DNA of 31,354 bases from Rozella allomycis CSF55 (Eukaryota; Rozellomycota), in assembly GCA_000442015.1 (NCBI GenBank), contig KE561165.1:1-31354 (forward strand), in the 5' to 3' direction. Both the position numbers and the translations under genes were made by a program. Below, piece after piece: positions 2,450-31,354 of this stretch (the stretch's first letter is position 1; every line of letters starts with the position of its first letter). The notes beneath the pieces are model-generated. The model was not told the DNA's origin and did not search any database. It saw nothing but the letters and a program-made list of their open reading frames with translations.

Positions 2450-3650
2450 ATGGAAGATAAACCCGCATTCGAAACACGGTTATCTTATAACGGAATAATG
2501 TTTCTCTTGAATAGAACCGCTTTTTTAAAAAAGTCCAATCAATGGACTGCCTATTACAGGTGTCAGAGATCAAAAGATGGCTGCAGCGCGAAGTTGATAT
2601 TTTCGTCAGATTCTACAGTGCTAAAGGGTAATATACTACTTTGATTGGATATATATAGGAGACCACACATGCCAGATTAAAAATGACAAAATGAATATAA
2701 TTGACGCTATCCAACATCCGCCTTATTCTATTTGTCCTGAAGGGCGTCAAATATTTCGTCGCTACTGGAGCGGCGATGTGAAGGGTGAGCTCCACAAGAT
2801 TCTATTGTGGGCAAGCGATGAAATGCTTGGCCTTTTGCGTCTCAACTCGCATACATTCATTGACGGTACTTTTCGTAGTTCTCCATTGCCTTTTAAACAA
2901 TTAGTGGTTATTATGACGTTTGACCCATCTAGTGAAATGTTTGTTCCATGTTGCTATGCTTTAGTTACAGCTAAAAATGGTTGGCTATACTCAGAGATTT
3001 TTCATATGCTGGTAACTCTCTTAAATTACCGCTGGCTGCCAAAATTGATGACCGCAGATTATGAAAAGGCTTTGATTAAAGCCATAAAAGAATCCTTCCC
3101 GGGTATTAGTTTTGTTGGATGCCTATTTCATTTCCAACAGGCTCTGTATAGGCGTATGGGGAAACTGGGTATGGACCAGCAGGTAAAGGACTGGCTAATA
3201 AAATTAACGCCAATGCTCACAGTGGTCAACCCGGATCACATTAGCATCGCAATTGACTTCATTAAAGAAAGATGCAAGAATCAAGTTTCAGTTGAAGCCC
3301 TAACTCTAATAGGTAGGTTTTTTCTATATTTTGAAAATACTTGGATGAAGTCTTATGAAATTCAAGACTGGAACGTATATCACCTTCGCGGGAATCCAGA
3401 ATTGATGAATAGAACAAACAACTGTTGTGAATCCGACAATAGAAGAATAAATGAAAAGTTCCCTACGACACACCCTCCCTTGAGCACATTCATTGGCGTT
3501 ATACAATCTGAAATATTTTACTTCTCGAAGAGACTCGAGTGTATACGGAAAGGTATCGAGCAAGTTCCTTTTACTGAAAAATTTGTTGACATTCCGTTGA
3601 TACCAATTGAACTTGAAGAGTTCATAAATGAAAAACGAATTAACAAATAA
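2450..3650 (+). CDS. FLYWCH zinc finger - MULE-type transposase, possibly intact or domesticated
   Basis: Two exons, 2450-2627 and 2659-3650, joined by a 31-nt GT-AG intron (2628-2658), give a 389-residue protein. Splicing completes the FLYWCH-type zinc ligand set: C38, C45, H62 and C64 (the last two in GDHTC, made by the exon junction). A MULE transposase domain follows: first Asp in the FIDGTF motif (about 128), second Asp in TADYEKAL (about 193), the C-x2-H pair in GCLFHF (about 214-217), and a candidate catalytic Glu in NNCCESDN (about 317). This is the catalytic layout of Mutator-like transposases, and the frame is unbroken. I saw no terminal inverted repeats close by, so it may be an immobile or domesticated copy. 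The TAA stop sits inside an AATAAA hexamer. Start ATG 2450 is the first in frame. Confidence 0.85.
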
Positions 3651-3670
3651 ATTATTTAGATATCTATTTT

Positions 3671-3903
3671 TGTTCATTTATTCTTAAGACAAACTGTAGA
3701 ATTTATTGAACTTTTTTCGGAAATTTTCGGGAGTTTTGGCAAATACTTAAATGAAATATGTTTTACATTGAATAATTTTTTCTTCAAAAAATAGTAAAAG
3801 TTGATTCACNTGTTCATTTTTTCTTAAGACAAACTGTAGAATTTATTGAACTTTTTTTCGGAAATTTTCGGGAGTTTTGGCAAATACTTAAATAAAATAT
3901 GTT
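3671..3903. repeat. About 92-bp duplication flanking N3810, ending at N3904
   Basis: Copy 1 at about 3671-3762 and copy 2 at 3811-3903 are nearly identical (short indel and base differences). Copy 2 is bounded by N on both sides, which suggests a small unmerged contig or alternative allele. Confidence 0.85.
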
Positions 3904-4114
3904 NATAGGCATTATTAAGTATTTGTACCTAGTCGACTTAATATTTTCTAATAGTAGTCCTATTCCATTAACTTGTTCATTAAAAGTTTCATCATTTCAA
4001 GTCATCAATTTATAACTTCTTAAAATAAACTTTAATCAGATAAAAAATTTCGTTAAAGTCTATCTTTTTAGTAAATTTCAAAAAAGAATTTACTACTTTT
4101 ATTTAGAAAAAAAT

Positions 4115-4384
4115 TTAGATAAATTTTAATTAAAATAATAAGAATTATTATTTGTTTAATACAAATGATTTTTTAATTGAATATTTTTAATGAAGAAAAT
4201 CTTAACTTCGAAATATCAAAAATATTTTTGCTGATGACAATAGAAAATAAAAAATAACTTAGATAAATTTAATAAAAATTAAAACGATACGTAATATAAT
4301 AAGTTTAATACAAATGATTTCTTTTTCATGAAGAAAATCCTAATTTTGAAATTTCAAAAGTATTTTTGATGATGACAATAGAAA
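4115..4384. repeat. Diverged tandem repeat, two units of about 130 bp
   Basis: Units at about 4115-4246 and 4259-4384 share an ordered series of words (TTAGATAAATTT, GTTTAATACAAATGATTT, ATGAAGAAAATC, TGATGACAATAGAAA). No N lies between them and they have diverged by substitutions and indels, so this is a genuine old duplication in non-coding DNA. Confidence 0.7.
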
Positions 4385-4613
4385 CTTACAATGATTATTT
4401 TTAAGTAAGAATAAAAAATTATTTAATATTATGTTAATTAAAATTTTATTATTTAGTTCCTTTTAAAAACTGATCAACTTTCATCGTCATTTCAAAGTTC
4501 TTGTACTTTGCAACGATCAATTTTGTTAAGTTTTTCTATTTGAGGTCCGGCAGTGACACAACGAAACCATTTTTAATATTATTCTTCATGTCCTTGCTTT
4601 TGCGGTCAAAAAA

Positions 4614-4940
4614 TCAAATTGTGGCGCAGAGGGGGGCACTGGGGGTCGGCCCATATGAAATATAACTACCCAACAATTTGACACCATCATTCTGAACTCG
4701 TAAAACTTCAGGTGGGATTAAAGTGATGTCTGGAAGACGGCTAGGCCAAAATAATTCACATTTTGTTATATTTAGATGTAATCCTAAAGAAGTCCCTTCA
4801 ATTTTAATAAATTCAAAAGCCTTATTACCACATCCACTTTGCCCGCTATAAATCCATCGTCGAGGATATATAACTCCGGGCATCTTTCCCTTACATTTAA
4901 AATTAACTCTTGCAAAACCAGTGAGAAAAGAAGAGGACCT
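4614..4940 (-). pseudogene. LINE-like reverse transcriptase fragment, frameshifted
   Basis: On the minus strand the piece starts in the RT motif GPLLFSLVLQ next to N4941, runs through YILDDG (the catalytic YxDD-type box) in one frame, then continues in another frame with GLHLNITKCELFW and PPEVLRVQNDGVKLLG. These are in the order seen in non-LTR retrotransposon reverse transcriptases (catalytic box, then the conserved GLxLNxxKCE block, then VKLLG). The frame change between about 4860 and 4810 breaks it, and no endonuclease or 5' part is present. It is a truncated dead copy abutting an assembly join. The family is well supported; the exact clade cannot be told. Confidence 0.8.
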
Positions 4941-5008
4941 NATTACTTAATTTAGTAGTGTGCACAACTACAGATGGCAAAAGTGGCGAAAAGCAGTCTG
5001 CACCTTTG

Positions 5009-6677
5009 ATGAGTTGTTCGAATGAGCTGATTAGAGAAATATATTCATATCTTCCATTAGATGATTCCATCGCGTTACGATCATGTAACCGCATGCTTAA
5101 TGAAAATTTCCGTATTCAAACTACAGAACTTGCGTCCAAGTGTATGGATACGTATATGAAAAATGGCGAATATGATAAATTATCTGATCTTTTGAATTCC
5201 AGAGTATCAAGAACAAGGATACTTGAAAAGAATGATTTGGACACCACACTAAAGTTGTTTATTTATGCGTGTGAAAATACTTCATTGCTTGATCTCTTGG
5301 TGAAGGAAGTGTCGAGACATGAGATATCTTTGAATGAGGTGATCGAAAAGATGCTCGGAGAAAATTGTTTGATATATCATGCGCGTTTGATCATTGACAG
5401 ATATATCAAGCTTGATAAAGATACGATGATCTCGATCATTTCTGGCAACTTTAAACTTTTATTTCAAAAATTTCTACCTCAACTCGATAATAATTTTGGA
5501 TTGGAAGATTTGACTAGTTTTATACAAGCTGCTGTTGAATATGATTCCTTGGATGTTTTTAGGTTACTATTTAGTAAATATGAAGATTTGATTTTCAACA
5601 GCAAAATTTTAGTGTCTGGACCTGAAAATACTGCACAAGATTCTGACTATAGTTTTTATCACTATGTTATAATTAAAGAAGCGGTACAGATTTTTGATTT
5701 TCTGCAAAACTATTATGAATTGGAACATTTTGCACTTTTGGAGTATGTAGACTTCAGCATAAGGGAGAATTGTCCATTGATGGTTGAATACTTTATGAAA
5801 ATGATTGACATTAATTTTGAAACATTTCCACTGTTGCATATATATTTATTAAATCACGATGATTATGAAACAATTGATGTAATGTTTAAGCACTTTGATT
5901 TCTTGTCACAAATGAGAATAATTCTACTTTCTTTTGACGCTAGAACTTCTAGAACGGACATTAATGAACATTTATTTGATAAACACTTGATCACTCTTGA
6001 GCATTTAAAAACTATCGTAAGAATCAATCGTATTTCATTATTCCAAACTGCAGTTACAACATTTACTGGGTTTGACTTGAATTACCTTTTTGATTATGCA
6101 CTGAAAATAGGAAGTTTACAAATAGCTTTTTATTTATTAGAANAAATTGACTCAATCAGAAATATGTTTTATTGTGAAGCAACATACAATAGAGGACTAC
6201 AAGGTAGGTTTGTTAAGCAATGTGATTGATGTTGATGTAGCGATAGAATGTGCTATAGATAATGAACAATTGGGGCCTTTGGACCACCTTTTGTCTATAA
6301 GGCCTTTAATTGATGATCACAAATTAGACAAGATTATCAACAGCTGGCAGCCCTTCTTTTTCGTTATCTTGCTTAAAAATAATTTGGTACCGCGAGAGAG
6401 AATATTGGAAAGGTGTTATCATTTGAATAATTTCGAAATGTTTGATTATTTTTTAGAAACCCACAAAGTTCGTCCTTCCTCTGATTTGATAAAATCTGCG
6501 ATTGAGAATTCCAAGTTTAAATTTCTAAAGTCAATGTTGAAGCATTCTCCAGATATGGCATTCTTAAGAGAATACAAATGTGACTTTCGACAATACCTTT
6601 TGAGGCATTCCAATTTTTCACAAGACAAAATATTGGAACTTTTAAACGTTATGAAAACACATAAAACGAAACAATAA
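5009..6677 (+). CDS. F-box protein with ankyrin-like helical repeats
   Basis: ATG 5009 starts an F-box (SNELIREIYSYLPLDD then LRSCNRML), followed by about 500 residues of paired-helix, degenerate ankyrin-like repeats. Such proteins usually bring substrates to SCF (Skp1-cullin) ubiquitin ligases. Reading is continuous to N6143. Beyond it the family-like frame is shifted (ending ...NVMKTHKTKQ, TAA 6675-6677), because the N hides an unknown length or because of an intron. A possible 37-nt GTAGGT...TAG intron at 6204-6240 would rejoin the frames, but the shifted frame is also plausible without it. It matches the other two F-box/ankyrin genes here in plan, though its repeats are much more degenerate. 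A GTG-started extension to 4958 is possible but not needed. Confidence 0.7.
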
Positions 6678-6690
6678 AGAATATTTTATT
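6673..6690. terminator. Overlapping convergent poly(A) signals
   Basis: AATAAA at 6673-6678 (plus) contains the TAA stop of the F-box gene. AATAAA on the minus strand at 6690-6685 contains the TAA stop of the WDR70 homologue. Only 8 bp separate the two stop codons, so transcripts must overlap if cleavage occurs downstream of the hexamers. Confidence 0.75.
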
Positions 6691-8544
6691 CAGGTTTGTG
6701 TCTCTTGACTTCGAATTCTGTGTATTCTCCAGTTTCAAATAACGCAACTGGTTGTGTTCTCTTATAAGCATGAGCAACGAATTCAGGATTTTCTTCTGCC
6801 ATTTTAGCATATTTCATTAATGCAGCTCTTGGATCTGATTCATCGCCATACGCTTCTTTGCGCAACATCTGAACCAAATGTTGAGTGTATGCATCACCCA
6901 ACTTGCTGCCTTTAGTTTTTGCTTCATTGGGTAACTCTGGTCGCTTGCTTTTGGCATAATTGTATCTTTCTTGTGCTCTCTTTTCCTTCAAACTGTATGG
7001 CGTTTGCTCTTTAAATAGTGGAAGGGAATTTGGCGCGTAAACTTTTTTATCAGCAGAAACAAAACTCTCAATTTTAGAAGTAAAATGGCGTTTAACACAG
7101 CATAGTACTCCTTTATGACTTCGTTCTTTGTCATATAACGCAGCAACAGATCCTCCACTGCTGCCTGCAAAAATCTTTATTAAAACATTGTAAGTTTATT
7201 ACTTGATTTAACCGTTTGTGCCAATATAGTTTAACAACAGATCCATCCGCTAAATCAATGTTGTTAAGAACTTGTCCAGTGGTTGTTTCATAAGCAATAA
7301 CTCTTCCACTTTCACCAGACCCTTTCTTGGCTGAAGTACCAGTCATAAATAGTTTATTATCTGGACTAAACATCGCACAAGTTTTTTCAAAGACGTTTGG
7401 TAGATTTTCATACTTGAAAAGTGGATCATTAAAGTTTCTCATGTCCCAGACTTTCAATGTGTTGTCCCATGAACGAGATAAAAGTAGGTTTCCGTCCAAA
7501 GAAAAGGAGAGACTCGTTATGTATTTATCCGCTTCATGCGCCATTTTATTCTATAAAAATCAACGATATGAAATTACCTTGATAGGAACAACAAATGGGC
7601 CTTTGGCATTCCATAGCCTGATAGTTCCGTCGTCACTTCCACTTGCTATCACGGACGCATCGTTTTTGTAAGCCACGGCTGAAACTGCAGGTCTCTTGGC
7701 TGCTTTTCCTTTAATCACGATTATGCTCTTTTGGGATTTGTCATTTTCTACATCCCAGATACGAACAGTGCTATCCATTCCACTAGTAATAAATGTATTC
7801 CCATCAAATGGATGCCAATCAGCTGCCATAATTGCATGTGTATGTCCTTTGGTATTCTTCTTATCGCGAAGATATGGATCTCCTTTGCTATAATCACATC
7901 TATTAATTAATATATTTGGTAATATTTTACATTGTGTGTCCATCTCTATCACACATCTTAGCTGACTGGCAAGAAGACGCTACCAAAATTCTATCTCCAG
8001 TCAAACTAAACTTTGCGTCAACAATCTTTTGTTGCTTTAAAATAATAAAGTTACTCCATAGCCTTCAAAAGGTTTTATGGTTCGGAAACTTCTAAACGTA
8101 TCATCCATAGAATTAAAGTCCCAAAGTCTCATTTCATGATCCAAACCTCCTGTAACCATTCTGGAGCCAGCTGGATCAATATGTATGGTGTTCACCAATC
8201 GGCTATGCTGCTTGAGTGTTGCCTGATATGAGATTGGCATATCTCTATCATCATATCCAACCTCTTCGAATTCTTCCTCATCGTCTTCATTGGTTTCAGC
8301 AACCCCTTCTTGAATGGATATACCCTCAGTGCTTTTTTCTATATTTTCAATATTCTTTTCATCGTCATTCTCAATTTTTTCAACGACATCGGTTTCTTCT
8401 GTATTTTCTTCGTCTGTTTCTTCCTCTACTATTTGAGGTTCCTTGTTTTATAAATATATAGGTTTCTACTAAATTGTGCTTTCCAAATGCCATTGGAAAC
8501 ATGGAACGTTTAACGTCTTTAGATATAGGCATTTGGTTCGGCAT
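6686..8544 (-). CDS. WDR70: WD40-repeat protein, WDR70 / gastrulation-defective 1 homologue
   Basis: Six exons (8544-8470, 8441-8055, 8025-7931, 7899-7578, 7550-7203, 7174-6686), introns of 28, 29, 31, 27 and 28 nt, 571 residues. Residues about 25-85 are an acidic Glu/Asp-rich stretch. WD40 repeats follow, with motifs such as VTGGLDHEMRLWDF, TSGMDSTVRIWDVE, ASGSDDGTIRLWNA and SRSWDNTLKVWDM. The order of segments, SQSAKMCDRDG, KPLF-like NDPLFKYENLP, TGTSAKKGSG and the C-terminal SDPRAALMKYAKMAEENPEF are hallmarks of WDR70. Splice choices were set by this alignment: for example the 29-nt intron at 8054-8026 restores WD-repeat length. WDR70 is a nuclear protein linked to chromatin and the DNA-damage response in other organisms. 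Its 3' end converges on the F-box gene. ATG 8544 is the likely start; an internal Met at 8532 is an alternative. Confidence 0.9.
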
Positions 8545-8702
8545 TCCTAGTGGCTTGGCTTAAGTTTTGGGCAAATGAATGAGATTCAATGTAACATTGG
8601 TGGATCTAAATTTGTACTCTTAGTGAATGAGAAATTCATATGAAAACTCGTGCATTACGCACTGCATTATGAGAGAATTAATTAAGACTCTTTATTTAAA
8701 AA

Positions 8703-11248
8703 CTAAACGTAGTTTGCTGATACCCATTCATGCTGGAGAATAGCAGAGCAATTTGGTCGTTTCTCTGGTACCGGATGCAGTAACATTTTGATTAATGCAA
8801 AACTCTCAGAGGTACATGCGAAAGGCGGTTTAATATTTCCTTGAATAGTTTCATCTACGTCTGGAAAGGGATACTCTGAATATAGCAAAGCGTATAAAAT
8901 GATTCCCAGCGCCCATATATCGTTTTCGTAGCCTAGATATGGTTTTCCTGTACAATGAACCCATGAATTTTATACCTGTTAGTATTTCTGGACTTGCGTA
9001 CTCCATAGTTCCAAAAAATATGTTAAATTTATGGGCGGGTGGGCAAAAGGTTGCCGATCCAAAGTCAATCAATTTTATGTTTCCTTTAGCGTCTATTAGA
9101 ATATTCTCCTCTTTGAGGTCTCTATGCACTATTTGATTGTCATGGCAGTGTTTAACAGCTTCAACAATCTGTTTAAATATACTTGAAGCTACGTATTCCT
9201 CCATGTGCGGATGCTCATCAACATACTGGAATAAATCAGTAGCGTCAGGAAAGTATTCCGTTATGATATAAAATGCGTCAGGGGATTCAAAAGATTCAAT
9301 ATATTTTATGATGTGCTCATTGTTTAATTTTGCAAGGCAGACTATTTCGTTTGGCCTTTCCTCTTCGTTATTCCAGAATTCTTTGCATAGTTTCTTTTTC
9401 GGAATTGTCTTAATAGTCGCCTATAAGATTTAGTAAAGGGGTCATTACCATCTTGTGATCAGCATTTCTGATTCCTAGCATAACTTGACCGTATGTTCCA
9501 GATCCCAAAGTTTTTTGTACAGTATACAATGACTTGATATAGTCAGAAGAGCAAACTTTCGAGTTGTCTGAACCAGACTCGATAATTGGTTTTTGATCGG
9601 CCCTTTGATCATATAATTGCTGATTGTCAGCTAGAGAAAGCCAAAGAACGTAGCCAGGAATTTCATTGTCTAATAATAATGTGTTTATCCTCACATAAAC
9701 ATTAAATATACCTCCATCATAATGGCTAGCCTTCATTTTATACACTTCAACATTCTTTCCATTGTCAACTTCAATCTTTATCTGATTGTTTGGACAATCT
9801 AATACATCAAAGAAGTCAGTAAGTAATTCTCTAACATTTTTATATTTGATGTCATTCAATCTAAAACCAAACATGAAGTTAAGAAAAGTCTCGTTTGCTT
9901 TTATAATTTGCCCGTCTTCATCTATAGCTATCGCCCCTCCAAGATCAAAAAGAAATTCTACTTTCACTATAAATTTAGAAGGATTTGAATTCTCATCTAA
10001 ATGAGCTATAACAGGGTAACAATTTTCTGGTTTTTGTCCAGTTGTAGTGGCATACAACCAAGTGTCCATAAAAAGATCTGTATTTATAATATCATCTAGA
10101 AAGTCTGGCGTAATAGATGGCAAAAATTGTGCAATATTGGCCATAACATAAGACGATCGAAACCCACAAAACGTCATTATAATCGGATCGATGCTAGATA
10201 CACACCCCTCTGATGATCAAGATGACTGATTTACCTTATCATCGCATTCAATTTTACCCGTCAACTTTTTAACAGATTCCATCAGTGCAACTATAACTCT
10301 TCCTTGATCGGTTGTGTTCAGTTTCATGTATATTGATAGCGTCAATATTTCGCCTCCTGTGGTCTTACCTTCAATCATCTAAACAATAAAGATATGTTTT
10401 ACCATGGTTCCATCTAGTAGAGTGATTGAATTAGTAGAATCATCTATCTTTACANTAGTGGAATCATCTATCTTTACAGTCTTTGCTTTATTTATCGCGT
10501 CCTGGATAATTGATGCAGATCTTCTGTCGGGAAACAAGCTAATAAAGTTGATGCAAAGGAATTGGTCATCTTCGTATTCGAATAAACGTCCTGCAAGATA
10601 ATTAAACGAAATGATTTTCTCAGATTCTACATTTAACATAACAAGAGCCCTATCATTTTTCAAAGTAAATGCAATGGATTGTGATATATCTTCAGCAGAA
10701 TCATCAGTAGACTTGAACACCTTGTCCTCTGACAACAACGCAGTGGAGTCATCCAATATCTTTTTCGTCTCCAATTTTGTATATGATGACCTAAAGGAGT
10801 TAATGGAATCAGAATTAAAGTCTTTTAAGTGACGTGGATGATCACTAGAAAATGACCGCCGTGAATAACCATGACTAAGTAATTTGGGAATATTAGCGGA
10901 AGACCTGTTTGTTTGGGTGTTTGTTTTAAATTGGGGGCGTATGGGTATAATGCTATCTTCAAAATTCAAAATGGCCTCGGAGCTCGAAGAAGTGCTATTT
11001 GATGTAGGATCAACAGGATTCGCATTTACTGAGTTGGGTCTAGCTATCTCTACTTTGGTTGACCAGCCATTAAATGAATGTGATTTTTTGTCAGAGAATT
11101 TACCCGGTTCAATCCCAAGTACCATACTATTGTTGTCCTTAGAATCGGCAGATACATTGGATGGTGCATTTATAACTAAATCGGCCATATCATTTGTTGT
11201 CTTTTCTAGATTGCCTATTTCCAGTTTTTCGTCACGGATTGATGGCAT
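8703..11248 (-). CDS. PSK1: PAS-domain serine/threonine kinase (PAS kinase)
   Basis: Five exons (11248-10403, 10378-10235, 10207-9449, 9420-8976, 8947-8703), introns 24, 27, 28 and 28 nt, about 812 residues. A Ser-rich N-terminus is followed by a PAS domain (about 190-325, including ISFNYLAGRLFEYEDDQFL), a second PAS-like region in exon 3 (GGAIAIDEDGQIIKANETF) and a C-terminal kinase from about residue 556. The kinase has GSGTYGQV, ATIK (K587), HRDLKEEN (682-689), DFG (702-704), SPE and DIWALGIILY, so it should be active. PAS kinases sense metabolic state and control sugar partitioning and translation in yeast (Psk1/Psk2) and animals (PASK). N10455 lies in exon 1 beside a 23-bp duplication that adds eight spurious codons in frame. 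It lies 62 bp downstream of GRX3 on the same strand; AATAAA follows the stop within about 10 nt. Confidence 0.92.
10432..10478. repeat. 23-bp duplication flanking N10455 inside the PAS kinase gene
   Basis: Copies 10432-10454 and 10456-10478 differ at one base. Together with the N they add 24 nt, which keeps the frame and inserts eight residues, probably artificial. Confidence 0.85.
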
Positions 11249-11310
11249 GGAATCGGAGATTTTTGGCGTAAAATTCTATCATGCTCAAGTAAAATAATTT
11301 ATTTGATGAT

Positions 11311-12365
11311 TTAATTTTTGTTCAACAAAATATTCCATTCTCCATTAGCTAACATGTCACGAAAGATGTCAAGCCCGCCTACAAATTCTCCTTTCACATA
11401 AATTTGAGGATACGTTTGCCAGTCAGAATACGTTTTTAGACCCTGCCTGACGTTTTCATCAGATAATATATCGAAATATCCAAAGTCGTTAACATTGTTA
11501 TCTCTAAATAACTGAATCAATTGACGAGTGAATCCACACTTGGGAGCTGTAGGAGATCCCTTAATAAAGATCATTATTTCCTTTTGGTTTATTAATTTCT
11601 TTAGGCGTTCATTCAAGGATTCAACTCTGGGAAGAATATCGTCAAGCTCTCCAGAGGCATTCATTTCTTTGACAATGTCCAATCCACCAACCAAGTCGCC
11701 ATTCACGTATAATTGAGGATAGGTGGCCCAATCAGAATATAATTTAAGACCTTAACAAATATTCAAAGTATTATTACCTTCTCTAACTTCATTGTCATTA
11801 AGAATGTTAAAGTAACCGAATTGAACCTTCTTTCATTCAGAATAGCTAAAATTTGTCTAGTAAATCCACATTTGGGTTCATGTGGAGTCCCTTTAATAAA
11901 TACCATGACTGGTTCTTGGTTGATTAATTCTTTTAGTCGAGTGTTGATGTCATTTTTCTTTTCGATTTGTACAGGGCTGTTTGCTGCAGATTTAACTGCT
12001 TTAACAATTTTAGAGATATCGGCGCCTTCTATTTTATCCTTGAGTGTCCCATTCTGGAATGAAGAATGAGGATTATATTTACTTGAAAAATGATCACTGT
12101 TGGTACAGATTCAATGTCCAGCTCTGAAGAGACTTCTTCGTGTTTCTCAGCTTCAAGCTTTATTAAATATTTTAAAGAGACTTACGTTTACAAAAGTGAT
12201 CATTCTGTGCTCTTTGGCAAGTTCGCTTATGACATCGTTGACTTGCGAGCAAGGCTTTGCCCAATCAGCCCAAACGTTTACAACAACTGTTTGTTTGGAT
12301 TGGACGATGATTTTAAAGTCTTCAAAGGATCCAGAGAATTGTGAAAGATTTACTTCAGTAACCAT
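11311..12365 (-). CDS. GRX3: Monothiol glutaredoxin-3 type protein (Trx-Grx-Grx)
   Basis: Four exons (12365-12186, 12157-12083, 12053-11778, 11750-11311), introns 28, 29 and 27 nt, about 323 residues. An N-terminal thioredoxin-like domain with WADWAKPCSQ (no second Cys) is followed by two glutaredoxin domains, each with KCGFTRQ, the TYPQ(L/I)YV glutathione loop and GGLDI. This is the metazoan/plant GLRX3 (PICOT) layout; yeast Grx3/4 have one Grx domain. These proteins bind a glutathione-ligated 2Fe-2S cluster and serve iron sensing and Fe-S delivery in cytosol and nucleus. Both active sites read CGFT rather than CGFS. Exon 3 needs one extra base near 11826-11827 (in a GG run on the minus strand) to keep the domain in frame: a sequencing undercall or a real frameshift. 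The start is 62 bp below MPP10; AATAAA lies just after the stop. Confidence 0.9.
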
Positions 12366-12427
12366 AGGTGGCTTGGTCCAAAGAAATTCAAAATTAGAGA
12401 TAAGAAGGAATGAGTTTATTATGCTTA

Positions 12428-14143
12428 TTATAGTTTTAATGAATTAGCAGAATTGCTTCGCTCTTCTTTCTTTTGTTGTTTTACTTCTCTGGATTTCTTC
12501 AATGAATCCGCAATAGCTGAACTGTTAAGTTTCTTAGATTCACTCTTCTTTACAATTGTAACATTCTTATTTTAATTCAGCATAAAAAATTACTTGCATT
12601 TTTTCAAGTTCTTTCATTGCCAACTCTTTATCGGTTAATTCTCTCTTGGGCTTGGTTTGCGCTAACTTAGATTTGGCTTTTCTGCGAAGTTTAGTTTTTT
12701 CGTTTGAAGAAAGCTCTGTTTGTCCTTTCAATTCACCTTGTTTCTTGTAAATTTCTTGTGGAGCAAGTCTAGACACATTAGAAACGTTAATAGGAAGGGC
12801 TTCTTCAACTTGAATAGATGGGATATCAGAAACAATTTGAATCCCTTCTTTAGCCTAAATATAACGATATTGAAAACGAATTACCTGCCGTGGAGTAAAG
12901 TTAAAGTTTGAAAGCGCATCTAACTTCTGCGTCAATTCATTAAACAATGCTTTAATTTCAAATTTTTCTTTTTCAAGCTTTTTATCGGCCTCTGATTTAT
13001 ATTCGGAATTATTTTTCTTCTTAAAGTCCTCTTCATAAAGTTGGGCAAGTGATTCTTTGCTCTTTTCTTGTGACACTTCATCAAGCTCGGTAGATACAGG
13101 CTTTACATCTTCATAACGCCTCTGAACATCATCAAAAGCATTTTGAATAATTCTTTGCTTTATTATGTCTTCTAGAGACCTTGCAACTTCTTCTGAAATT
13201 TCTGGAACTGGCTTAGTTTGGTCGAATTCAACAACTTCTTCCAATAAAGAATTCTCTGGCCTAACTTTTGATGTAACCTTTTTATTTAAAGTGAAATTTA
13301 TTACTTCACCAATCATAGTCCAAGGCTTCTCTGAAACATTTTCTTTTTCAAGATCAGCAATCATTTTATTCATTCTTTCTTGGTGTTTTTCAAAAGAGCT
13401 TTTCATTTCGTCTTGTTTTTCATCTTCATCTTCATCAAATAATTTTATTTTGTTGTCTTCATAAAATTCTTTATAACCAATCTCATCAGCGTCTAAATCT
13501 TCTTCTTCCTCTAACTCGCTATCTAATTCGGAATCATCTTCATTTTCTAAATCGTTTTCATTCTGATCATAAAATTCTTCTTGTTCCTCTGCTAGCCTGT
13601 CTAAATCATCAAATGAATTGATAGATTTAAATGGTTTTCTATTTTCTTTATTTTTAATATTTTTATTTAAATCGAGTTCTTCTTCCGCTTGATCATCAAA
13701 ATCACGAATGTCGATATCATCTTCTTCCACTTCATCTACGTCTTGATCGTCATCCACCTCGCTATCTTTGTCCATATCATCAATCTCATTTCCTATATCA
13801 CTTTGAAGTTCTTCCTGGCTGTCATTCTCATCACTTTCACATTCACTTTCATCAGCCTCGGCAAGTTCTAAACTCTCGACTTTTTCATTTAAAAAACTCA
13901 AACACGGCTTATTCATCAATTCTATCATTTCCCATATTTGATTTTCATCCAGATTTTCTGTATAAAGCTCTTTCAAAGGTCCAAAAGCCATGTGTTCTTG
14001 CTCTAAAATTAAAATACCGCTAAGATTTTACTTTGATCATATAATTTCTTTGTATATGACACAAAAGTATTGGCGGCCTCTTCTGAAGATTGTAGAAAAT
14101 GATTTTCTGGCTCTTTTAAAATTTTGGCCAACAAATCTTCCAT
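12428..14143 (-). CDS. MPP10: U3 snoRNP protein MPP10
   Basis: Four exons (14143-14032, 14002-12885, 12854-12594, 12565-12428), introns 29, 30 and 28 nt, 542 residues. Mpp10 is a core of the U3 snoRNP / small-subunit processome and acts with Imp3 and Imp4 in 18S rRNA maturation in the nucleolus. Seen in the sequence: the N-terminal DENQIWEMIELMN motif, long Asp/Glu-rich acidic tracts (about residues 85-225), KPWTMIGEV, RPENSLLEEVVEFD, the AFDDVQRRYEDV block and the C-terminal SRLAPQEIYKKQGELKG motif with a Lys/Arg-rich end. Length and block order match the family. Exon 1 (37 codons) was found by joining at a GTAAAA...TTTTAG intron and starts at ATG 14143. It is divergently placed from the ankyrin gene at 14456. 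AATAAA follows the stop within about 10 nt. Confidence 0.93.
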
Positions 14144-14455
14144 TCTGAAAAATTAAGACAGGGGTCTTATAAAGTCTAAAACCCCCATAGAAATTGAGAA
14201 TCGACCTTTAATGATTTACTCACTAGTTCAAAATTAATGGGGATTGGATCTATCCAGACTTTTTTTCATCAATATTCATAAGTCATGACTCATATCAAAA
14301 TTTTCGACATTCAATTGTGCAATTTGTTCATGTGTCCACTGAGTCAAATTAAAGTAACAAAATTTTCTCTTGATGGCTATCATGTAGAAGACTTGTGTTA
14401 CTTTTTTCATCGCCTGGTAGGTTATCAAGGCTTGGCACAGCAGAAAACTTTTTCT
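14144..14455. promoter_or_regulatory. Divergent intergenic region between MPP10 and the F-box/ankyrin gene
   Basis: About 310 bp between two divergent starts, so it should hold both promoters. The plus-strand frame is already open from an ATG at 14285, so part of it may be coding or 5' UTR. No TATA box or other site could be assigned with confidence. Confidence 0.45.
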
Positions 14456-17351
14456 ATGCGTATAGAAACATACCCTCCAGAAATTACTCTTAACATACTG
14501 TCTCATTTAGATTCTTCTACTCTCAGAAATGTTGCTTTAGTTTCACGCTCGCTCAACTCCCTCTGTCGTGACAGAATAAGAAATTATAGCGCGAAAAGAA
14601 TAGTTTCGCTGAATTGTCCATACATTATTAAATGTTATGTAAAAGAAAAAAATGGATACGATTTAAAACTCGAGATCTATGAAAAAATTCTTGTCGATGG
14701 TGACAACATTGAAAACGTTATTCACTTTTTAACTTATTCTGGAAGTATATCCACTAATTCATGTGCCATTAATAATTCTCTTCTTCAATTTGCATGTCTT
14801 TATGGTATTACTGAATTTGTCATGCATGTTTTGAACTCAAACGAAAATTTAATCATTTCGAACCAGCTAAAACAAAGTCGTTCTGGCCTCAATCAAATAA
14901 GTGATTTACAAACATTGGGTGTTAATGACCAAATAGAGATAAAAGTGGATCCCAGTGCTGATGATAACTATGCAATAAGGAAGGCATCGAGGGCTGGGCA
15001 TGCAGACATCGTTAAATTGTTATTGTCTGATAAAAGAGTGGAGCCAGGTGCTCTAAATAATATTGCATTAATGCAAGCATGCGAGAGCGGACACGTAAAT
15101 GTTGTTGAACTTTTACTTTCGGACTCGAGGGTGGATCCTAGTGCCGATGAAGATTCAGCATTGAGGATGGCCACAGTTTGTGGACATACAAATATAGTCA
15201 AATTGCTATTATCTGATTCTAGAGTTGACCCAGGAGTGTACCAGAACCATGTCCTAAGATGTGCATCAGGTAGTGGATTTATTGACATAGTTAAAATACT
15301 TTTATTGGATACAAGAGTCAGTCCAGAGTCTTTAAATAATGGTTCAATTAGGTGTGCATCGCGTGAAGGTCATTCAGAAATCGTAAAGTTGTTACTGGCT
15401 GATCCAAGAGTTAATCCAAGTTCAGAAGATAATTATTCTCTCCGTTTGGCTTCAGAAAAGGGACATTTAGAAGTGGTCAAATTATTGCTGGATGATCTAA
15501 GAGTTGATCCAAGGGCCGGAGATAATTATTCCCTCCGAGTGGCTTCTGCAAACGGACATTCAGAAATCGTGAAAATACTATTAAAAGATCCGAGAGTCGA
15601 TCCAAGCGCCGAAGATAATTATGCTATACAATGGTCGTCATGCTATGGTCACACTGATGTTGTCAAATTACTGCTTCAGGATGAAAGAGTTGATCCGTCT
15701 GCAAACGATAACTCTGCCATTCAATTTGCTTATCAACATTACAACGTAGATATCGTTAGGTTATTATTGGCTCATCCAAAAGTCGATCCCAGCACTTGTG
15801 TTACTCCATGGCATTATACAGATCAACACTCGGAAGTGACTATCGAGTTATTGTCAGATGTAAGAGTTGAAATTGATGAATACATGATTTCCATGGCGTC
15901 CGATTATGGACATACAGATGTGGTTAAATTATTACTTTCTGATTCACGGGTTGATCCATCTGTTAACAGTAACGATGCCATCATTGCTGCAGCTCGTGGC
16001 GGGTATACAGATATCGTCAAAGTTTTAATGTGTGATTCAAGAGTAGATCCCAGTGACCAACAAAATGAGTGCATAAAGACCGTGTCTGCTTTTGGTCATA
16101 TGGAAACTGCCAAATTATTGTTGACGGATTCAAGGGTGAACCCTTCGACTGGGGATAATTGTTGTATCAAATCATCTTCTGCGAATGGACATGTAGAACT
16201 AGTGAAGTATTTATTGACAGATTCAAGAGTTGATCCATCCGCCAATAGAAACTANAGAAATTGCCAAATTATTGTTGACGGATTCAAGGGTGGATCCTTC
16301 GGCTGGGGATAATTGTTGTATCAAATCATCTTCTGCGAATGGACATGCAGAACTAGTCAAGTATTTATTGACAGATTCAAGAGTTGATCCATCCGCCAAT
16401 AGAAACTANCCGTAATTCGAAAAAAAGTTGAGACTGAAAACCCCTGCAGTCTCAACTTTTATTCGATTTTCGTTAAACAGCAGTACTTTCCCTTGGACTA
16501 AGAAATCAAAATTTTATATGAATAAATTTTTTTGCAGAGAAACAGTTATGGCGTTTTTCAGATTTTAAAAACGACAAAAATTGGCGCCAAAACCAAAAAT
16601 AGCAAAAACACCCTATGCAACAAATGCCCAACGCCTACAATACGTATCCATAGCTCGCGTACACGGTGTAGACCTTGCCATGCAAAGTCCTGGTGCATCA
16701 CAGGCCAGTATTGTCCGTTGGATGAAGTGCGAGGAGAAACTTAAACTCCGGCAAAAACTTGCCGAAAAAATCTCCTCGGAAGCGTACCGATCAATACCGT
16801 ATGTTAGAACAATTTATTTTGGGATACAGTCAATTGTGTTGGACTCATTCCTTGCGTAAACATCTTAAATTTTGTTCATTTAGAGGTACCGTNATAGAAA
16901 CTATTCTATACAATCAGCATCTGACAATGGTCACCTGGAAGTAGTCAAAATACTATTAGGCGATCCAAGAGTAGATCCAAGCGCTGAGAACAACTATGCT
17001 ATAAGATACGCTGCTATGAACGGTCATTATGAAGTCGTGAAGTTATTGATGTCTGATGACAGAGTTGATCCGAGTGCAGATGAAAATTTCGCCCTTAAAT
17101 ATGCATACCATAACGGACATACTGAATTAACTAAATTATTGGTGTCGGATCCGAGAGTCAGACAGTTGGGATTACCTTCTCAAAATGGGTTTGTGCAAGT
17201 CTTTCCACTAATGTTCTTAAATTGCCTTATTGATCTAACCAACGATGATCTGGAGTTAAGAAATCGATATTCTGATGTAATCCGTAAGATAAATCATGCC
17301 ATTGATATACCTTCCTGCTTGTTAGAAGAGATTATTAATAGTAATCAATAA
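14456..17351 (+). CDS. F-box protein with a long array of 31-residue ankyrin repeats (split by assembly joins)
   Basis: The likely start at 14456 gives an N-terminal F-box (YPPEITLNILSHLDSS, then VALVSRSLNSLCRD); an in-frame ATG at 14285 would add 57 residues. From about 14945 there are roughly 15 repeats of 31 residues of the form VDPSADDNYAIRKASRAGH-x3-VKLLLSDSR, ending at N16255. After two joins (N16409, N16893) at least two more repeats follow, then a unique C-terminus ending at TAA 17349-17351. The repeats are ankyrin helix pairs with a fixed VDPS start. One repeat near 15790-15860 is degenerate. F-box/ankyrin proteins typically recruit targets to SCF ubiquitin ligases and are favoured as effectors by intracellular microbes; a role here is inference. 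The region 16256-16892 does not belong to the continuous gene as shown. Confidence 0.8.
16102..16408. repeat. 153-bp duplication flanking N16255 in the ankyrin gene
   Basis: Copies 16102-16254 and 16256-16408 are near-identical and cover about one and a half ankyrin repeats, both ending in the same AGAAACTA. Either unmerged contig or allele ends, or a true repeat that defeated assembly. Confidence 0.85.
16410..16892 (+). pseudogene. Foreign 483-bp piece with transposase-like HTH remnant
   Basis: Bounded by N16409 and N16893 and unrelated to the ankyrin gene around it. A reading frame from about 16581 contains a helix-turn-helix-like stretch (residues reading YVSIARVHGVDLAMQSPGAS then IVRWMKCEEKL) that resembles the DNA-binding part of pogo/Tc1-type transposases; after about 90 residues it stops, and there is no catalytic domain. 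A strong hairpin lies at its left side. The ankyrin gene resumes directly after it with the same 10 bp that ends the left contig (16399-16408 and 16894-16903). It may be a small transposon insertion or a wrongly placed contig. The HTH call is tentative. Confidence 0.4.
16423..16460. repeat. Perfect 14-bp inverted repeat with 10-nt loop
   Basis: AAAAGTTGAGACTG at 16423-16436 pairs perfectly with CAGTCTCAACTTTT at 16447-16460 around a loop of AAAACCCCTG. It lies at the left edge of the inserted piece and could be a transposon end or a transcript hairpin. Confidence 0.85.
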
Positions 17352-25149: not shown

Positions 25150-26568
25150 ATGTCGAATGAAACTCATCTAATGAATGAGCTCAAACCAACATCCCACGTA
25201 GTATTTGCTGATCAAAAGTATGAAATAGTGATTCCAAGCTACAGCGCTTGGTTTCAACTAAACACAGTCCATGAAATTGAGAAAAATGCACTTCCAGAGT
25301 TTTTCGATGGTAAGAGCCAATCAAAAACGCCCTCAATATACAAGGATTATAGGTAAAGAAGTGTATAAACTATAACAGGGATTTTATGGTAAACACGTAC
25401 CGCTTGAATCCCACTGAATACCTAACATTTACTGCTTGCCGCAGAAATCTTACTGGTGATGTTTGTTCAGTTTTGAAAATCCATGCATTCTTGGAACAAT
25501 GGGGGCTAATTAACTATCAAGTATATAACCTCTTAACCTTTGATATAGGTAGGTAAAGAGAATCGCCCTGCACTTTTGGGAACAGCATTTACAGGTCATT
25601 TCCATGTCTCTGCCGAAACACCGAATGGTATTTTGCCGATCTTCCCGTCTCCAGAAAGCACCGCCAAGCAACAGGCAATTTCCGTGAAACAAGAATCGTT
25701 GAACCAACAAACATATAACATGGACACAAGGCCTCAACTGAAAGTCAATTTGATATGCTGTACTTGTGGTGTAACATGTCCCGATATATACTACCATTGT
25801 CTCAAAAAGCCCGAGCAAAGTATTTGTTCAACGTGCTACAAGGAAGGCAGGTTCCCAAGCACATTAAAATCAAGTGATTTTATGAAAATGAATCCTCAAG
25901 AAAAAATTTTAAAAGAAGATGTGTGGACAGACCAAGAAACTTTATTTTTGTTGGAGGCAATTGAGATGCATGGCGATGATTGGTTAAAGGTCGCTGAACA
26001 CGTGAAAACAAAAGACAAAGAGCAATGTATTTTAAAGTTTTTACAGTTGCCCATCCATGATGACTATTTGAAGGGTGTCAATTATGAAAAGGCACCCATT
26101 AGCCATGTTGATAATCCAGTGCTATCAGTGGTTGCCTATCTTGCATCAAATGTTCCTGCCGGATTAGCTGCTGCGGCTGCCAAAGCGTCTATTAAAGAGC
26201 TGGAAAATATAAAAGAGAACAAAGTCGAAGGAAATGAGATGGGTACATTGCAACAGGCCGCGATGACGGTGCTTTCAATGACCGCATTGAAAGCCAAACT
26301 ATTGGCAGAAGAAGAAGAGAAAAAACTTCAAAGGTTCGTGAGCATGGCCATCGAAGCAGAATTAAGAAAAGTTGAGATGAAGATGAAACATTTTGAGGAG
26401 TTGGAAGAACTTTTGATGAAAGAACGACGAGAAATTGAAAGAGAGAGGCAATTATTGTTTGCTGAAAGAATGAATTTGAAAAAGCAGTACATGGAAATGG
26501 AAATCAAGAATGTTGCTGTTGATTATGGAATGGATGAGTTACAAGGGCAAAATCTGATGGAAATTTAA
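25150..26568 (+). CDS. RSC8: SWI3/RSC8/SMARCC chromatin-remodelling subunit (SWIRM-ZZ-SANT)
   Basis: Three exons (25150-25352, 25379-25520, 25549-26568), introns 26 and 28 nt, 454 residues. Core subunit of SWI/SNF-RSC remodelling complexes in the nucleus. A SWIRM domain at about 20-115 ([67 protein letters not shown]) is completed only by splicing. A ZZ-type zinc finger follows (CCTCGVTC...YYHC...CSTCYKEG), then a SANT domain ([41 protein letters not shown]) and a long C-terminal coiled coil used for dimerisation. Length is nearer Rsc8 than Swi3; one gene may serve both complexes, so the symbol is approximate. The stop TAA runs directly into AATAAA. Confidence 0.93.
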
Positions 26569-26827
26569 ATAAAAATATTAAAAAAGATATAATAACGTTA
26601 ACATCATTAAATATTAAATTTGAATATGAAATAATGTCCTTTAAAAAGATGGCTCTTTAGACCTTCGCAATCTGTTATCCGTTTCATTGTTAACATAATT
26701 CGCATACCCTGTTCAGTTTTCTATTAATAATTAAGCCATATATCGGGAAGTTTTTTCTATAAATATCGGACATCCTTCAGAAGTTATAAATATACACCCT
26801 GGTCTAACACATTCGCGGCTGAGTTTA

Positions 26828-28408: not shown

Positions 28409-28641
28409 ANTCAATCCATGGGCAAGAAGTCAAGAAGCGTTGAGGAATGCCAGCATGAATGGACATTTGGAGACAGTAAAATTTTTGGTGGAAGAATGTG
28501 GTTTGAATCAACGGGTCAAGTTTCAAGAACCACTCCGTCTTGCTATTGCGAATGGTCATTCGAGGGTGGTTGATTATTTAACGCAGAAAATCGAGTTCAG
28601 TACTGTTCATAAAACATGGAAAAACCGGTTTAAAGTCTAAA
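28179..28641. repeat. 231-bp duplication flanking N28410
   Basis: Copies 28179-28409 and 28411-28641 cover the last ankyrin repeats and the stop codon of the F-box/ankyrin gene and differ at a few positions, several of which change residues near the C-terminus (KKSEFINVHKTWI against QKIEFSTVHKTWK). Probably two alleles or paralogues joined end to end. Confidence 0.88.
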
Positions 28642-29222
28642 ACTCAATTAAAAAACTAAATGTATTACTATAACTTCAAAAACTTTAAACAAACTCTTGT
28701 TTTATCACATCCAAAGCATTTCAATTACAATTTTGAGCACTATGTTAGTAGACAATTTTAAGCGTATTAATAAAATCATCCTTTCTTACGTCAAATATTT
28801 TGCTGTTTCTAAAATAGACTCAATAAATACAAAAACAATACTATTTTTATGCCGAATTCCAGAATTAACTACGTTCTGGCTGTATATAGGTAACATGCCG
28901 CATTTGCCAGCTACTGCACAGATTTCAATTTTTCAAACGCGAATCCCACCAGGCTCTCCTCATGCCTTTTATCAATCCATTCCCGGGGTCAGAGCGAAGT
29001 GAGGAGGTTCATTCTGCGGGTCTTTGGCTACTGCAAATAGTTATCAAACCATAATGTGATACGAATTTGCTTGAATGGGGTATGTGCTGCCTACAGCCTA
29101 GAAAATTGTCTCTATTTCTACTATTGTCCTTTGTGAATTTGCTTATTTCTTGTGCCCACCCTGGCATGAACGTCAACAAAATCTCAGTTAAAGTAGCTCC
29201 CTGGAAAGGCAAAAAAATAACN
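28642..29222. other. Unexplained intergenic segment, GC-richer from about 28855
   Basis: 28642-28850 is AT-rich and empty. 28855-29220 has noticeably higher G+C than nearby non-coding DNA, with an unconvincing open frame on each strand. I could not match it to a tRNA, 5S rRNA or spliceosomal RNA. The minus strand next to N29222 (TTTTTTTGCCTTTCCAG) looks like a 3' splice site that could lead to a last exon of the SEC9 gene. Confidence 0.4.
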
Positions 29223-30137
29223 TACCATCATTCAGATTCCCGGTCCTATTAGCCATTCTATCGATTTGACCCGACGTCGACGCTATTTTCTGTGTCATAC
29301 GCAGTCCATCTCTTTTCATCTCTTCGAGTCCCAAGCTCAACAATCCCAAATCATTTTCAATTTCATCCTCCAGTCTATCAAACTCTGCATTCCGGCCTCT
29401 ATACCTATCCATCGACCGAANAACTCTGCATTCGTGCCTCTATACCTATCCATCGACCGAACCCTTCTTTCTTCGCTAGTATGTTCCTTTTTCCTGGGCT
29501 TCTCATTAGCCGATCTCATCAATTCTTCATACTCGAAATCCTCCCTGCGATCATCTCTCTGGAACGTTCTCTTTTCATACTCATACAGCTGGTTCTCCGA
29601 TTCGACCAACTCCCGCCTCTCCCTGCTCTTCTTAAATGACGGCATACTGAATGCGAACATTTTCCCATACTTTTTCACTTGACGGATTTCCTCGCGCGAT
29701 CGCTTGACATTGGCATCTGATTCGAGAATCTGCCGTTCGGATTTAGTGAGCTGCTCGCACTGGCGGTCAAGTTTTTGCATTGCAGAGTTTTTTACATCGA
29801 GGGTGCTGTTCATTACGGCTAGGATGCGCTTTGTGCTTTGGGCTGTGGCGCGCTGTTCTTGTATGATGCGGTCGTTTAGTTGGTCGGCGGTGTCGGTGGT
29901 GTGCCTTTGGCGGGATGGGTCGTTGAGCAGTTCTTGTCTTGTTCTGTGGTAATGTCTGTGGCGCTCGTCTCTGGAGTCTCTGGTGTGGTCACGATCACGA
30001 TGGTCTCTGTGCTCTCGGAGGTATCGATCTTCGCGTCTTTTACTTTCATCATCTCGTGATGATTTGTAATTTTCTCTTTCATCAGCGCGACGACGTTCGT
30101 ATCTGTCACTCATGACCTCCTTTGTTTCAAAGTCCAT
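29223..30137 (-). CDS. SEC9: SNAP-25/Sec9-like t-SNARE with Arg/Asp/His-rich N-terminus, 3' end in a gap
   Basis: Two SNARE helices. The Qb helix spans NDRIIQEQRATAQSTKRILA to the SREEIRQVKKYGKMF region, with zero-layer Gln in DRQCEQL. The Qc helix follows N29421 and includes ENDLGLLSLGLEEMKRDGL and the zero-layer Gln in STSGQIDRM, then runs into N29222. Two SNARE motifs in one protein without a membrane anchor define the SNAP-25/Sec9 class, which pairs with syntaxin and synaptobrevin at the plasma membrane during exocytosis. The first 70 residues are an unusual charged stretch rich in Arg, Asp, His and Glu. The 40-bp duplication around N29421 shifts the frame. The last turns of the Qc helix lie in the gap or in a further exon. 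Start ATG 30137; an in-frame Met at 30110 is an alternative. Confidence 0.82.
29381..29461. repeat. 40-bp duplication flanking N29421 in the SEC9 gene
   Basis: Copies 29381-29420 and 29422-29461 differ at two bases. With the N they add 41 nt, which breaks the frame, so the gene's apparent frameshift is an artefact of this join. Confidence 0.88.
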
Positions 30138-30274
30138 CAAAGATTAAATTTTGATTCCAAAAATAGAAACTAATCCCTCAAAAATAACACATAAAAAATA
30201 AAAGGCAATCAACATTCGCCAAAAATTAACAGTATAGCATCCCTATTTTCGCGCCAACTTAGCCACCCTGAACA
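30138..30274. promoter_or_regulatory. Short divergent promoter region between SEC9 and the gene at 30275
   Basis: Only 137 bp separate the two start codons, so the region must hold both promoters. It is A-rich on the SEC9 side and GC-richer near 30250. No specific element assigned. Confidence 0.5.
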
Positions 30275-31354
30275 ATGCCACCCAAACCAGTAGTTATCCA
30301 GCGGCTATTAGAGCATTTCAAGGACGGCGGCGGCGACATGACTTTGAGCAAGAAAATGCTGTCGGATATCCAGCAGGCGCTGTACAAGCCGAGCACATCG
30401 TCTTCGGTTGCGTATCACCTGTTGCTTGCTCTTATCAACAATGCGAGTAATTTCTGTGTGTACCAGCGTAAATATTTTTAAAATGTTAAAGATAGAATGT
30501 GTGATGAAGAGTGTAGTTGAGCTGGAAAAGAAGATGCGGGAGGATGATTTGAGCAAGCTGGTTAGTAATGTGATTACCAAGTGGGTTGAAGTGTGCGGGG
30601 AGGGGGATTATGAGGCGCTTGGGTGGATGTTTCGGAAGCTTTATTGTTTGGTTGGGAGGAAGGAGGATGAGGGGGTGTTTAAGTGTTGTAAGGAGATTAT
30701 GTTTTGATGAGTAGTGGATGTTGTGGGGGGAGAGGATGGAGAGTGTTTGGTTGTTGTTTGTGGACAGTTGAATCATGTAAAGTATTTGATCAAGGGGAAT
30801 AAATATGATGATGTAATGGATGGATTGTTTGTAGAGTAGATGTTTGAGTATTTTGAGAGGGGGATATTGTATGATAGTATTTGTAGGATAAGAAATGCAG
30901 AGTTTAGAGAGCAGCAATTTTCGATGGTATTTAAAATCATGTATGGGGAGTATGTAAAGCATAATGTGGATGAGGAGGATCGATGGATTAAGTGGACATG
31001 GATGTGTTTTAGATGGACTAGTAAATTTGATGCGAGAATATTTATTGAACAATTAATTAATGGAATGAAGAAAATAAAAGAAGAAAATTTGAAAAGATTT
31101 TTAGAATTTTTTATTGAAAAAGACCCATGCAATTTGGAATTGCTTTTGTTGCTTTATTTTAGAGACAAGGAAAGATCTAGAGAGGTGTTTAATGAGATTA
31201 AAGAATATAGAATGAAAAATTTATTAAAATTGTTTTCTTTTATTTTTTATGATGAAAAGATATTTGAAGATTTAGATCTACAGGGAGAAGAAGTAGGAAA
31301 GATTAAAGATTGGATTCATTATTTGAAGCATTTGAATAAAATTGAAATTTTAGT
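30275..31354 (+). CDS. Unknown helical protein, 5' part (runs off the window)
   Basis: Four exons proposed: 30275-30467, 30496-30687, 30715-30812 and 30840 to the window end, with introns of 28, 27 and 27 nt (GTAAAT...TAG, GTAAGG...TAG, GTAATG...TAG). This removes TGA TGA at 30705-30710 and TAG at 30837-30839 and gives about 330 open codons. The start MPPKPVVIQRLLEHFKDGGG is convincing. The rest is predicted helical and rich in Lys, Glu and aromatic residues (WIKWTWMCFRW, FIEKDPCNLELLLLLYF), with no signal peptide or recognised domain. Exons 2-3 and the start of exon 4 are strikingly G-rich and C-poor on the coding strand. The introns rest on frame and splice-site fit only, because no homologue is recognised. 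Divergent from SEC9 with a 137-bp shared promoter. Confidence 0.6.

Follow-up and report, generated by a model that had tools for sequence, protein, structure and literature searches.

Very short GTA...AG introns in the genes of Rozella allomycis CSF55

Ultra-short introns have been described as the standard class in ciliates, nucleomorphs and mikrocytids, and in small numbers in microsporidia. In Paramecium, median intron lengths are 25 nucleotides (nt) in P. tetraurelia and 24 nt in P. bursaria, with a narrow range in both, and P. bursaria is reported to lack a consensus at positions +3 to +6 (PMC12862383); another Paramecium paper takes GTA and TAG, paired at 21-30 nt, as the signal under study (PMC9612004). 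The introns of Stentor coeruleus measure 15-16 nt and are reported to have no strong branch consensus, together with conventional small nuclear RNAs (snRNAs) (PMC9505925). For Rozella, a survey of fungi arrived at 2.5 introns per kb of coding sequence, with no Rozella intron length in the text examined (PMC8476143). The present analysis concerns the introns in a stretch of 31,354 nt of Rozella allomycis CSF55, a tiny fungus that parasitizes other fungi from within (contig KE561165.1, handled as C172 and called the window below) and their counterparts elsewhere in the assembly. Very probably, Rozella genes carry U2-type GTA...AG introns of about 26-29 nt, removed by an ordinary-looking spliceosome, likely through intron definition.

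No description of intron length in Rozella or other rozellids appeared among the literature matches listed, a coverage that leaves out the 2013 Rozella genome paper, and four genome papers checked by term held no passage on introns beyond the title of a reference. Short introns are implicit in the deposited annotation, and they may have been mentioned before.

Short introns in the window and across the assembly

A preliminary description of the window had set out 21 introns, 24-31 nt long and distributed over seven genes. All 21 were recovered by splicing with the lengths given, each with GTA at its start and AG at its end, and 28 nt, named there as the peak, is indeed the commonest length (8 of 21). 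The GT and AG termini of U2-type spliceosomal introns are thus present in every case. Five of the 21 were placed by the reading frame, two in a gene at the 3' end of the window conflict with a deposited partial model, and fourteen are backed by a deposited protein or by a conserved protein whose alignment spans the junction: all five in the WDR70 gene, both in the RSC8 gene, all three in GRX3, two of four in the PAS kinase gene, one of three in MPP10 and one of three in the 3' gene. In WDR70, removal of five introns yields a protein of 557 amino acids that differs at none of the 554 residues of the deposited Rozella allomycis CSF55 protein O9G_004217, the model starting three codons upstream of the deposited start. 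This identity establishes the organism and provides independent support for all five junctions, though O9G_004217 is itself a predicted protein; an alignment to human WDR70 passes through four of the five.

Conserved proteins are also restored outside the window. In the gene for the homologue of the large U2AF subunit (U2AF-large), taking out five introns of 26-29 nt gives a match of 282.9 bits to TIGR01642 over positions 46-509 of the 510 of this profile, versus 126.7 bits for the best unspliced piece, and the spliced product aligns with human U2AF65. In addition, 20 candidate junctions of 26-29 nt were drawn randomly from 79 lying outside the window, and 19 of them were scanned with Pfam. 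Ten had a Pfam domain, which crossed the junction in nine (GPI2, RPC5, carboxylesterase, Piezo, ANTH, Pyr_redox_2 twice, mitochondrial carrier and a WD40 propeller) and fell short of it in one; the two Pyr_redox_2 cases represent competing ways of splicing at a single place, and the 29-nt version scores higher. As a control, ten bridges of 45-80 nt attributable to chance, three from a single place, were treated likewise; two had a domain, which crossed in one. Of note, genes for a Piezo channel and for GPI2 both lie in one 10-kb locus (L014, C191:140001-150000), and introns of 28 and 26 nt fall within their conserved domains.

The length and donor of these introns were followed in an assembly of 9,970,177 bases in 213 contigs by counting frame-bridging candidates, i.e., stretches with open frame on both sides that break the frame when retained, a requirement that makes stop-free introns of length 3n invisible. 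Trinucleotide pairs at the two ends were counted in 231,354 bases, comprising the window and twenty 10-kb stretches of contig C191, with open flanks of 120 nt and with expectations taken from bridges of 50-120 nt. Among 7,270 donor/acceptor pairs (some containing N), GTA..TAG at 24-31 nt stands out, with 109 occurrences versus 22.6 expected, the runner-up being GTA..AAG in the same length band (64 versus 44.1). The peak recurs in a sample of 20 loci (63,819 bases), 19 of which are on other contigs and one of which (L031) lies inside a counted C191 stretch; here, 18, 18, 12 and 8 candidates of 26, 27, 28 and 29 nt were found, versus 4.6 per length.

A pooled scan drew on 42 sources (298,338 bases, roughly 3% of the assembly, spread over 22 contigs) and required both flanks to stay open for 150 nt. 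It gave a mean of 39.8 GTA bridges per length at 26-29 nt, as compared with 7.0-10.7 for the bins that cover 32-150 nt. Bridges starting with GTG, GTT or GTC show no peak at 26-29 nt in these pooled data. Among donor trinucleotides, GTA alone is clearly in excess, in the pair count as in the pooled scan. The detectable introns are thus of about 24-32 nt, without a measurable share of non-GTA donors. The GTA excess amounts to about 119 per 298 kb, which extrapolates to about 4,000 introns over the assembly, a lower bound because the scan needs long open flanks. The single peak at 26-29 nt, which is seen in every sample scanned, bears out the proposal that Rozella introns are far below usual fungal sizes, with a mode well under the 40 nt that would have spoken against it. 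With a mode below 35 nt, a narrow range and no other peak up to 400 nt, the introns are of the ciliate type in length, and they are so too in their GTA..TAG ends and AT-rich body, the GC content being 28% for the 106 candidates with lengths of 24-32 nt versus 32.5% in the sampled DNA. Finally, a gene finder based on coding potential placed 29 GT-AG introns, seven of them at 26-31 nt, whereas five other signal pairs gave 20-25 introns each with 0-2 at these lengths; the cases are few and point in the same direction as the scan. The short introns are real and turn up wherever the genome was sampled; comparable introns are known from other lineages.

Signals inside the introns and the splicing machinery

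Internal signals were examined in 135 candidates of 26-29 nt located outside the window (79 from C191 and 56 from other loci). The donor carries little beyond GTA. Position +4 is A in 69% of the candidates and in 86% of the 21 window introns, while +5 is G in only 20 of 135 (15%, the background level) and in 10% of the window introns; information over background is 0.38 bit at +4, -0.01 bit at +5 and 0.01 bit at +6. Most fungi favour G at +5. The extended donor GTAAGT is accordingly not the consensus of these candidates, and the +5 G preference is gone although U1 could still pair with a G at this position. On the exon side, the last base is A or G in 79% of the candidates, and the base preceding the final AG is T in 58%, which makes TAG the end met most often.

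A TTAAC/TAAT-like branch site close to the 3' end had been proposed for several of the window introns. This is not supported by the larger set, where none of four branch motifs is significantly enriched over a first-order model: YTRAY occurs 46 times versus 39.5 expected (z 1.4), CTAAY 8 versus 4.3 (z 1.7), TTAAC 3 versus 4.3 and TACTAA 1 versus 0.9. Other words were considered and set aside. TCAA appeared strong in an earlier set of 86 introns compared with simple shuffles (20 versus 8.0, z 4.6) and weakened in the 135 (26 versus 17.7, z 2.0); TTGA went from a mild excess in the 86 to 33 versus 27.1 in the 135; both words occur at scattered positions; TTCA was mildly enriched in the 86-intron set, again relative to simple shuffles; and some longer words reach z values of 4-6 on 3-5 occurrences each, among thousands tested.

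There are positional biases near the 3' end, which raise the possibility that the branch point is well defined after all and sits at a nearly fixed distance of about 6 nt from the 3' splice site, position replacing motif as in Stentor, where 90.9% of introns have the tenth of their 15 bases as branch A (PMC9505925). In agreement with this, there is more A than expected at -6 (69 of 135, z 3.3) and at -4 (68 of 135, z 3.2) and more T at -8 and -9 (50% and 49%), and T-N-A with its A at -6 occurs 39 times versus a mean of 22.3 per position. However, the 21 window introns show no excess of A at -6 (38%), chance bridges have a bump at the same position (58 of 392), and 15 positions were tested. A near-fixed branch point is therefore conceivable, with the balance tilting somewhat against it, and the lack of the -6 excess in the window introns together with the bump in chance bridges is the reason why the branch point is left unplaced here. 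By the same token, the view that donor and branch point have almost no space between them loses its footing: were the branch point near -6, they would be about 20 nt apart.

The components expected to act on such introns are largely recognizable in the assembly, and the snRNAs with standard recognition sequences on which U2-type splicing depends are among them. U2 snRNA (139.2 bits) carries the standard GUAGUA and U6 snRNA (88.5 bits) carries ACAGAGA, while U1 snRNA (69.0 bits) starts with UAACUUACCUG and has the recognition sequence ACUUACCUG. Among proteins, genes for Slu7, Prp18, the branch-point factor SF1 and U2AF-large were detected, together with one LUC7 locus and a piece of SNRNP27 (24.5 bits for a cut-off of 23.1). 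The suggested check of U1, U2 and branch-point factors turned up a set that looks conventional. Searches for splicing components covered 11 families of RNAs and proteins, a set without U4 and U5 snRNAs, and nine of these gave a match. In yeast, Slu7 and Prp18 are dispensable when the branch point is close to the 3' splice site. Their loss, expected from a short distance between branch and 3' end, is not what was observed, as both genes are present.

Two families gave no match. RED_N is without matches in the genome and equally without matches in the control genomes, so that absence is not implied. For METTL16 (PF05971), no candidate was found in the 9.97 Mb of a perhaps incomplete assembly, with four of 14 control genomes (prokaryotes) exceeding the cut-off. 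METTL16 has been linked to A at +4 in Saccharomycotina by Parker and colleagues (PMC10581693); if its absence is real, Rozella, with its +4 A, would possibly be an exception to this association.

Individual genes of the window

Four of the seven genes lie on the minus strand. The WDR70 gene (6686..8502), identified by splicing, Pfam, alignment to human WDR70 and the deposited protein, has introns at 8442..8469 (28 nt), 8026..8054 (29 nt), 7900..7930 (31 nt), 7551..7577 (27 nt, with in-frame stops) and 7175..7202 (28 nt). The first is placed by the reading frame and by the identical junction in O9G_004217, and the others additionally by human WDR70, without gaps at the junction in the case of the second. 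In the PAS kinase gene (8703..11248; splicing, Pfam, alignment to human PASK), the introns at 9421..9448 and 8948..8975, both of 28 nt and within the kinase domain, are crossed without gaps by the alignment to human PASK (3dls). Those at 10379..10402 (24 nt) and 10208..10234 (27 nt) follow from the reading frame, each giving an in-frame stop when retained. A protein search with the PAS kinase returned no match at 1e-40, perhaps because its query words came from the poorly conserved first 500 residues.

The GRX3 gene (11311..12365; splicing and structure alignments) has introns at 12158..12185 (28 nt, in the thioredoxin domain) and 12054..12082 (29 nt), across both of which the alignment to human thioredoxin-like protein 2 (Grx3, 2diy) is gapless at the junction, and at 11751..11777 (27 nt, in the first glutaredoxin domain). 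The junction of this third intron is spanned by a match to yeast Grx5 (3gx8) which, going by its table row, pairs residues 2-62 of the query with 50-110 of the chain, stretches of equal length; the second glutaredoxin repeat of the same gene continues likewise across the position of the intron. The gene also contains a one-base frame break (about 11825-11835), either a sequencing indel or real, which separates its thioredoxin part from the first of the glutaredoxin domains. In MPP10 (12428..14143; splicing, Pfam, human MPP10 alignment), the alignment to human MPP10 (7mq8) is gapless at the junction of the intron at 12855..12884 (30 nt). The reading frame places the introns at 14003..14031 (29 nt), where a weak gapped alignment to human MPP10 (21.1 bits) also exists, and at 12566..12593 (28 nt).

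On the plus strand, the RSC8/SWI3-type gene (25150..26568; splicing, Pfam, yeast RSC8 alignment) has introns at 25353..25378 (26 nt), inside the SWIRM domain (Pfam 37-114), and at 25521..25548 (28 nt), both crossed without gaps by yeast RSC8 (6tda for the first). The region 2450-3650 holds a transposase gene of the MULE type whose product has a FLYWCH-like finger. Its putative intron of 31 nt (2628..2658) is placed by the reading frame, with a Pfam MULE match downstream of it and a FLYWCH match below cut-off upstream; a mobile element may thus be carrying the intron type of its host.

The seventh gene (30275..31354, plus strand), of unknown function, continues past the end of the window. It has no Pfam domain, and its sole homologue at E<=0.001 is a partial Rozella protein, ROZALSC1DRAFT_31808; it is perhaps fast-evolving or lineage-specific. 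Of the three introns that had been listed in it, one (30688..30714, 27 nt) has the same junction in this deposited partial protein and stands. The other two conflict with it and are uncertain: the first is either 28 nt long (30468..30495) or 49 nt long (30447-30495, as in the deposited model), and the third (30813..30839, 27 nt), placed by frame, is read through in that model.

Elsewhere, the window includes a long ankyrin-repeat gene (14285-17351), open up to 16254 without any intron. It also contains 22 single N, for instance at 16255, 16409, 20159, 22085 and 28410, several of them with nearly the same sequence to their left and right, as would result from placing overlapping contigs end to end, duplicating bits of the ankyrin and other genes; between two such joins (about 16410-16892) is a stretch unlike the ankyrin repeat. 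Scans of the window with Rfam at the gathering score and for tRNAs gave no match.

Alternative explanations, recognition and comparison with known systems

Besides the question of branch-point position, three other explanations can be weighed. The short introns could be only a subset, with ordinary introns of 50-400 nt existing alongside them. The scan would indeed be blind to introns beside short exons, and the deposited model of the 3' gene does contain one intron of 49 nt. However, none of the bins between 32 and 400 nt has a peak of bridges starting with GTA, GTG, GTT or GTC, the rise of GTA to 15.0 at 301-400 nt running parallel to that of the three other donors, and the longest intron needed in the five conserved genes of the window measures 31 nt. 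A second length class up to 400 nt is thus not seen in the 298 kb of the pooled scan, and we regard its existence as unlikely.

A second explanation is that these are introns of the microsporidian type, few in number and with strict donor and branch motifs, inherited through a sister-group relationship. Sizes do overlap, since introns of Encephalitozoon cuniculi range from 22 to 76 nt. Yet the introns of E. cuniculi number 37, their 5' and branch motifs are relatively strict, and no U1 is reported to have been found (PMC3629993), and Rozella is the opposite on all three points, with its 2.5 introns per kb (PMC8476143), its weak motifs and its U1 snRNA. The strictness of motifs expected of this type is not seen in the consensus and information content of the candidates, and this origin is very improbable. 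Least credible of all is that the genes are decaying, interrupted by frameshifts, stops or assembly errors over which GTA..AG pairs happen to form a bridge: the window does hold single N that join overlapping repeats, one gene with a one-base frame break and, at loose settings, many bridges, but the dominance of one trinucleotide pair in one length band, the recurrence of the length peak in the locus sample and in the pooled scan, the gapless alignments of conserved proteins across junctions and the deposited protein matching all WDR70 junctions lead us to reject it.

Several observations nonetheless weigh against short U2-type introns as the general explanation. At the loose setting, where open flanks of 45 nt suffice, the window holds 229 GTA..AG bridges of 18-35 nt, and the stricter scan, covering 3% of the assembly, detects introns flanked by long open frames only. 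About one quarter of the 135-candidate set are estimated to be chance bridges, which dilute every motif, and one of the ten chance bridges examined likewise had a domain across it. A GTT bump at 28 nt was present on other contigs (9 versus 4.5) and is gone in the pooled data. The U1 match lies 0.5 bit below the Rfam cut-off (69.0 versus 69.5), and the spliced U2AF-large remains under the curated TIGR01642 cut-off (310.3 bits). ROZALSC1DRAFT_31808 contradicts two of the 3'-gene introns, and the home-made coding-potential gene finders are weak, one of them having chained distant open reading frames.

None of this changes the preference for U2-type introns of about 26-29 nt. Their length and GTA donor, the conventional snRNAs, the genes for splicing factors and the proteins restored by their removal are direct observations; that they are actually spliced is what the restored proteins suggest. 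As the donor holds next to no information beyond GTA and the +4 A, and as no branch motif is apparent, each intron is probably read as one short AU-rich unit. U1 would recognize (A/G)|GTA at the exon edge and U6 the A at +4, while U2 would pick a suitable A among the last dozen bases, shortly before a usable AG; the narrow length would thereby do part of the job performed elsewhere by sequence motifs. This would amount to a very compressed form of intron definition, a solution similar to that of Paramecium and Stentor which may have arisen separately in the fungal lineage. More tentatively, and on balance doubtfully, the lineage leading to Rozella and Microsporidia may first have shrunk its introns to 26-29 nt and only later have lost introns and reduced its spliceosome, length itself having become a recognition signal; Rozella lacks the +5 G and a clear branch motif while having, by extrapolation, thousands of introns, U1, Slu7 and Prp18. 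A holomycotan with many ultra-short introns, nine of the 11 families searched and the standard code would offer a cleaner system for studying the minimal needs of the spliceosome, and Rozella could represent the state that came before the intron-poor Microsporidia. An ordinary-looking splicing machine apparently handles almost minimal introns in a fungus too.

Among described systems, the likeness to E. cuniculi is one of very short introns in a related lineage and stops at the differences given above. Cryptococcus neoformans shares with Rozella the possession of many short introns in a fungus, with a mean of 63 nt termed relatively short (PMC8476143), more than twice the length seen in Rozella. 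Mikrocytids are alike in their very narrow length range and as intracellular parasites, and differ in having introns of 16-17 nt with a highly conserved sequence and a reduced spliceosome (PMC10245619). The commonest intron of Stentor, GUAAUUUUUAUAUAG, starts with GTAAT and ends with TAG, as many Rozella introns do; however, length in Stentor is almost invariant and the branch A nearly fixed (PMC9505925), whereas the introns of Rozella are at least 10 nt longer and their branch point is unplaced. Paramecium resembles Rozella in its very short introns, their narrow length range and their GTA/TAG ends; Rozella stands apart from it as a holomycotan with a mode of 26-28 nt, a +4 A that is kept and, in the genes examined, the standard code. 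Rozella introns had been thought close to the shortest spliceosomal introns known. Since introns of 15-16 nt in heterotrich ciliates (PMC9505925) and of 16-17 nt in mikrocytids (PMC10245619) are shorter, those of Rozella belong with the introns of Paramecium (PMC12862383) rather than at the floor.

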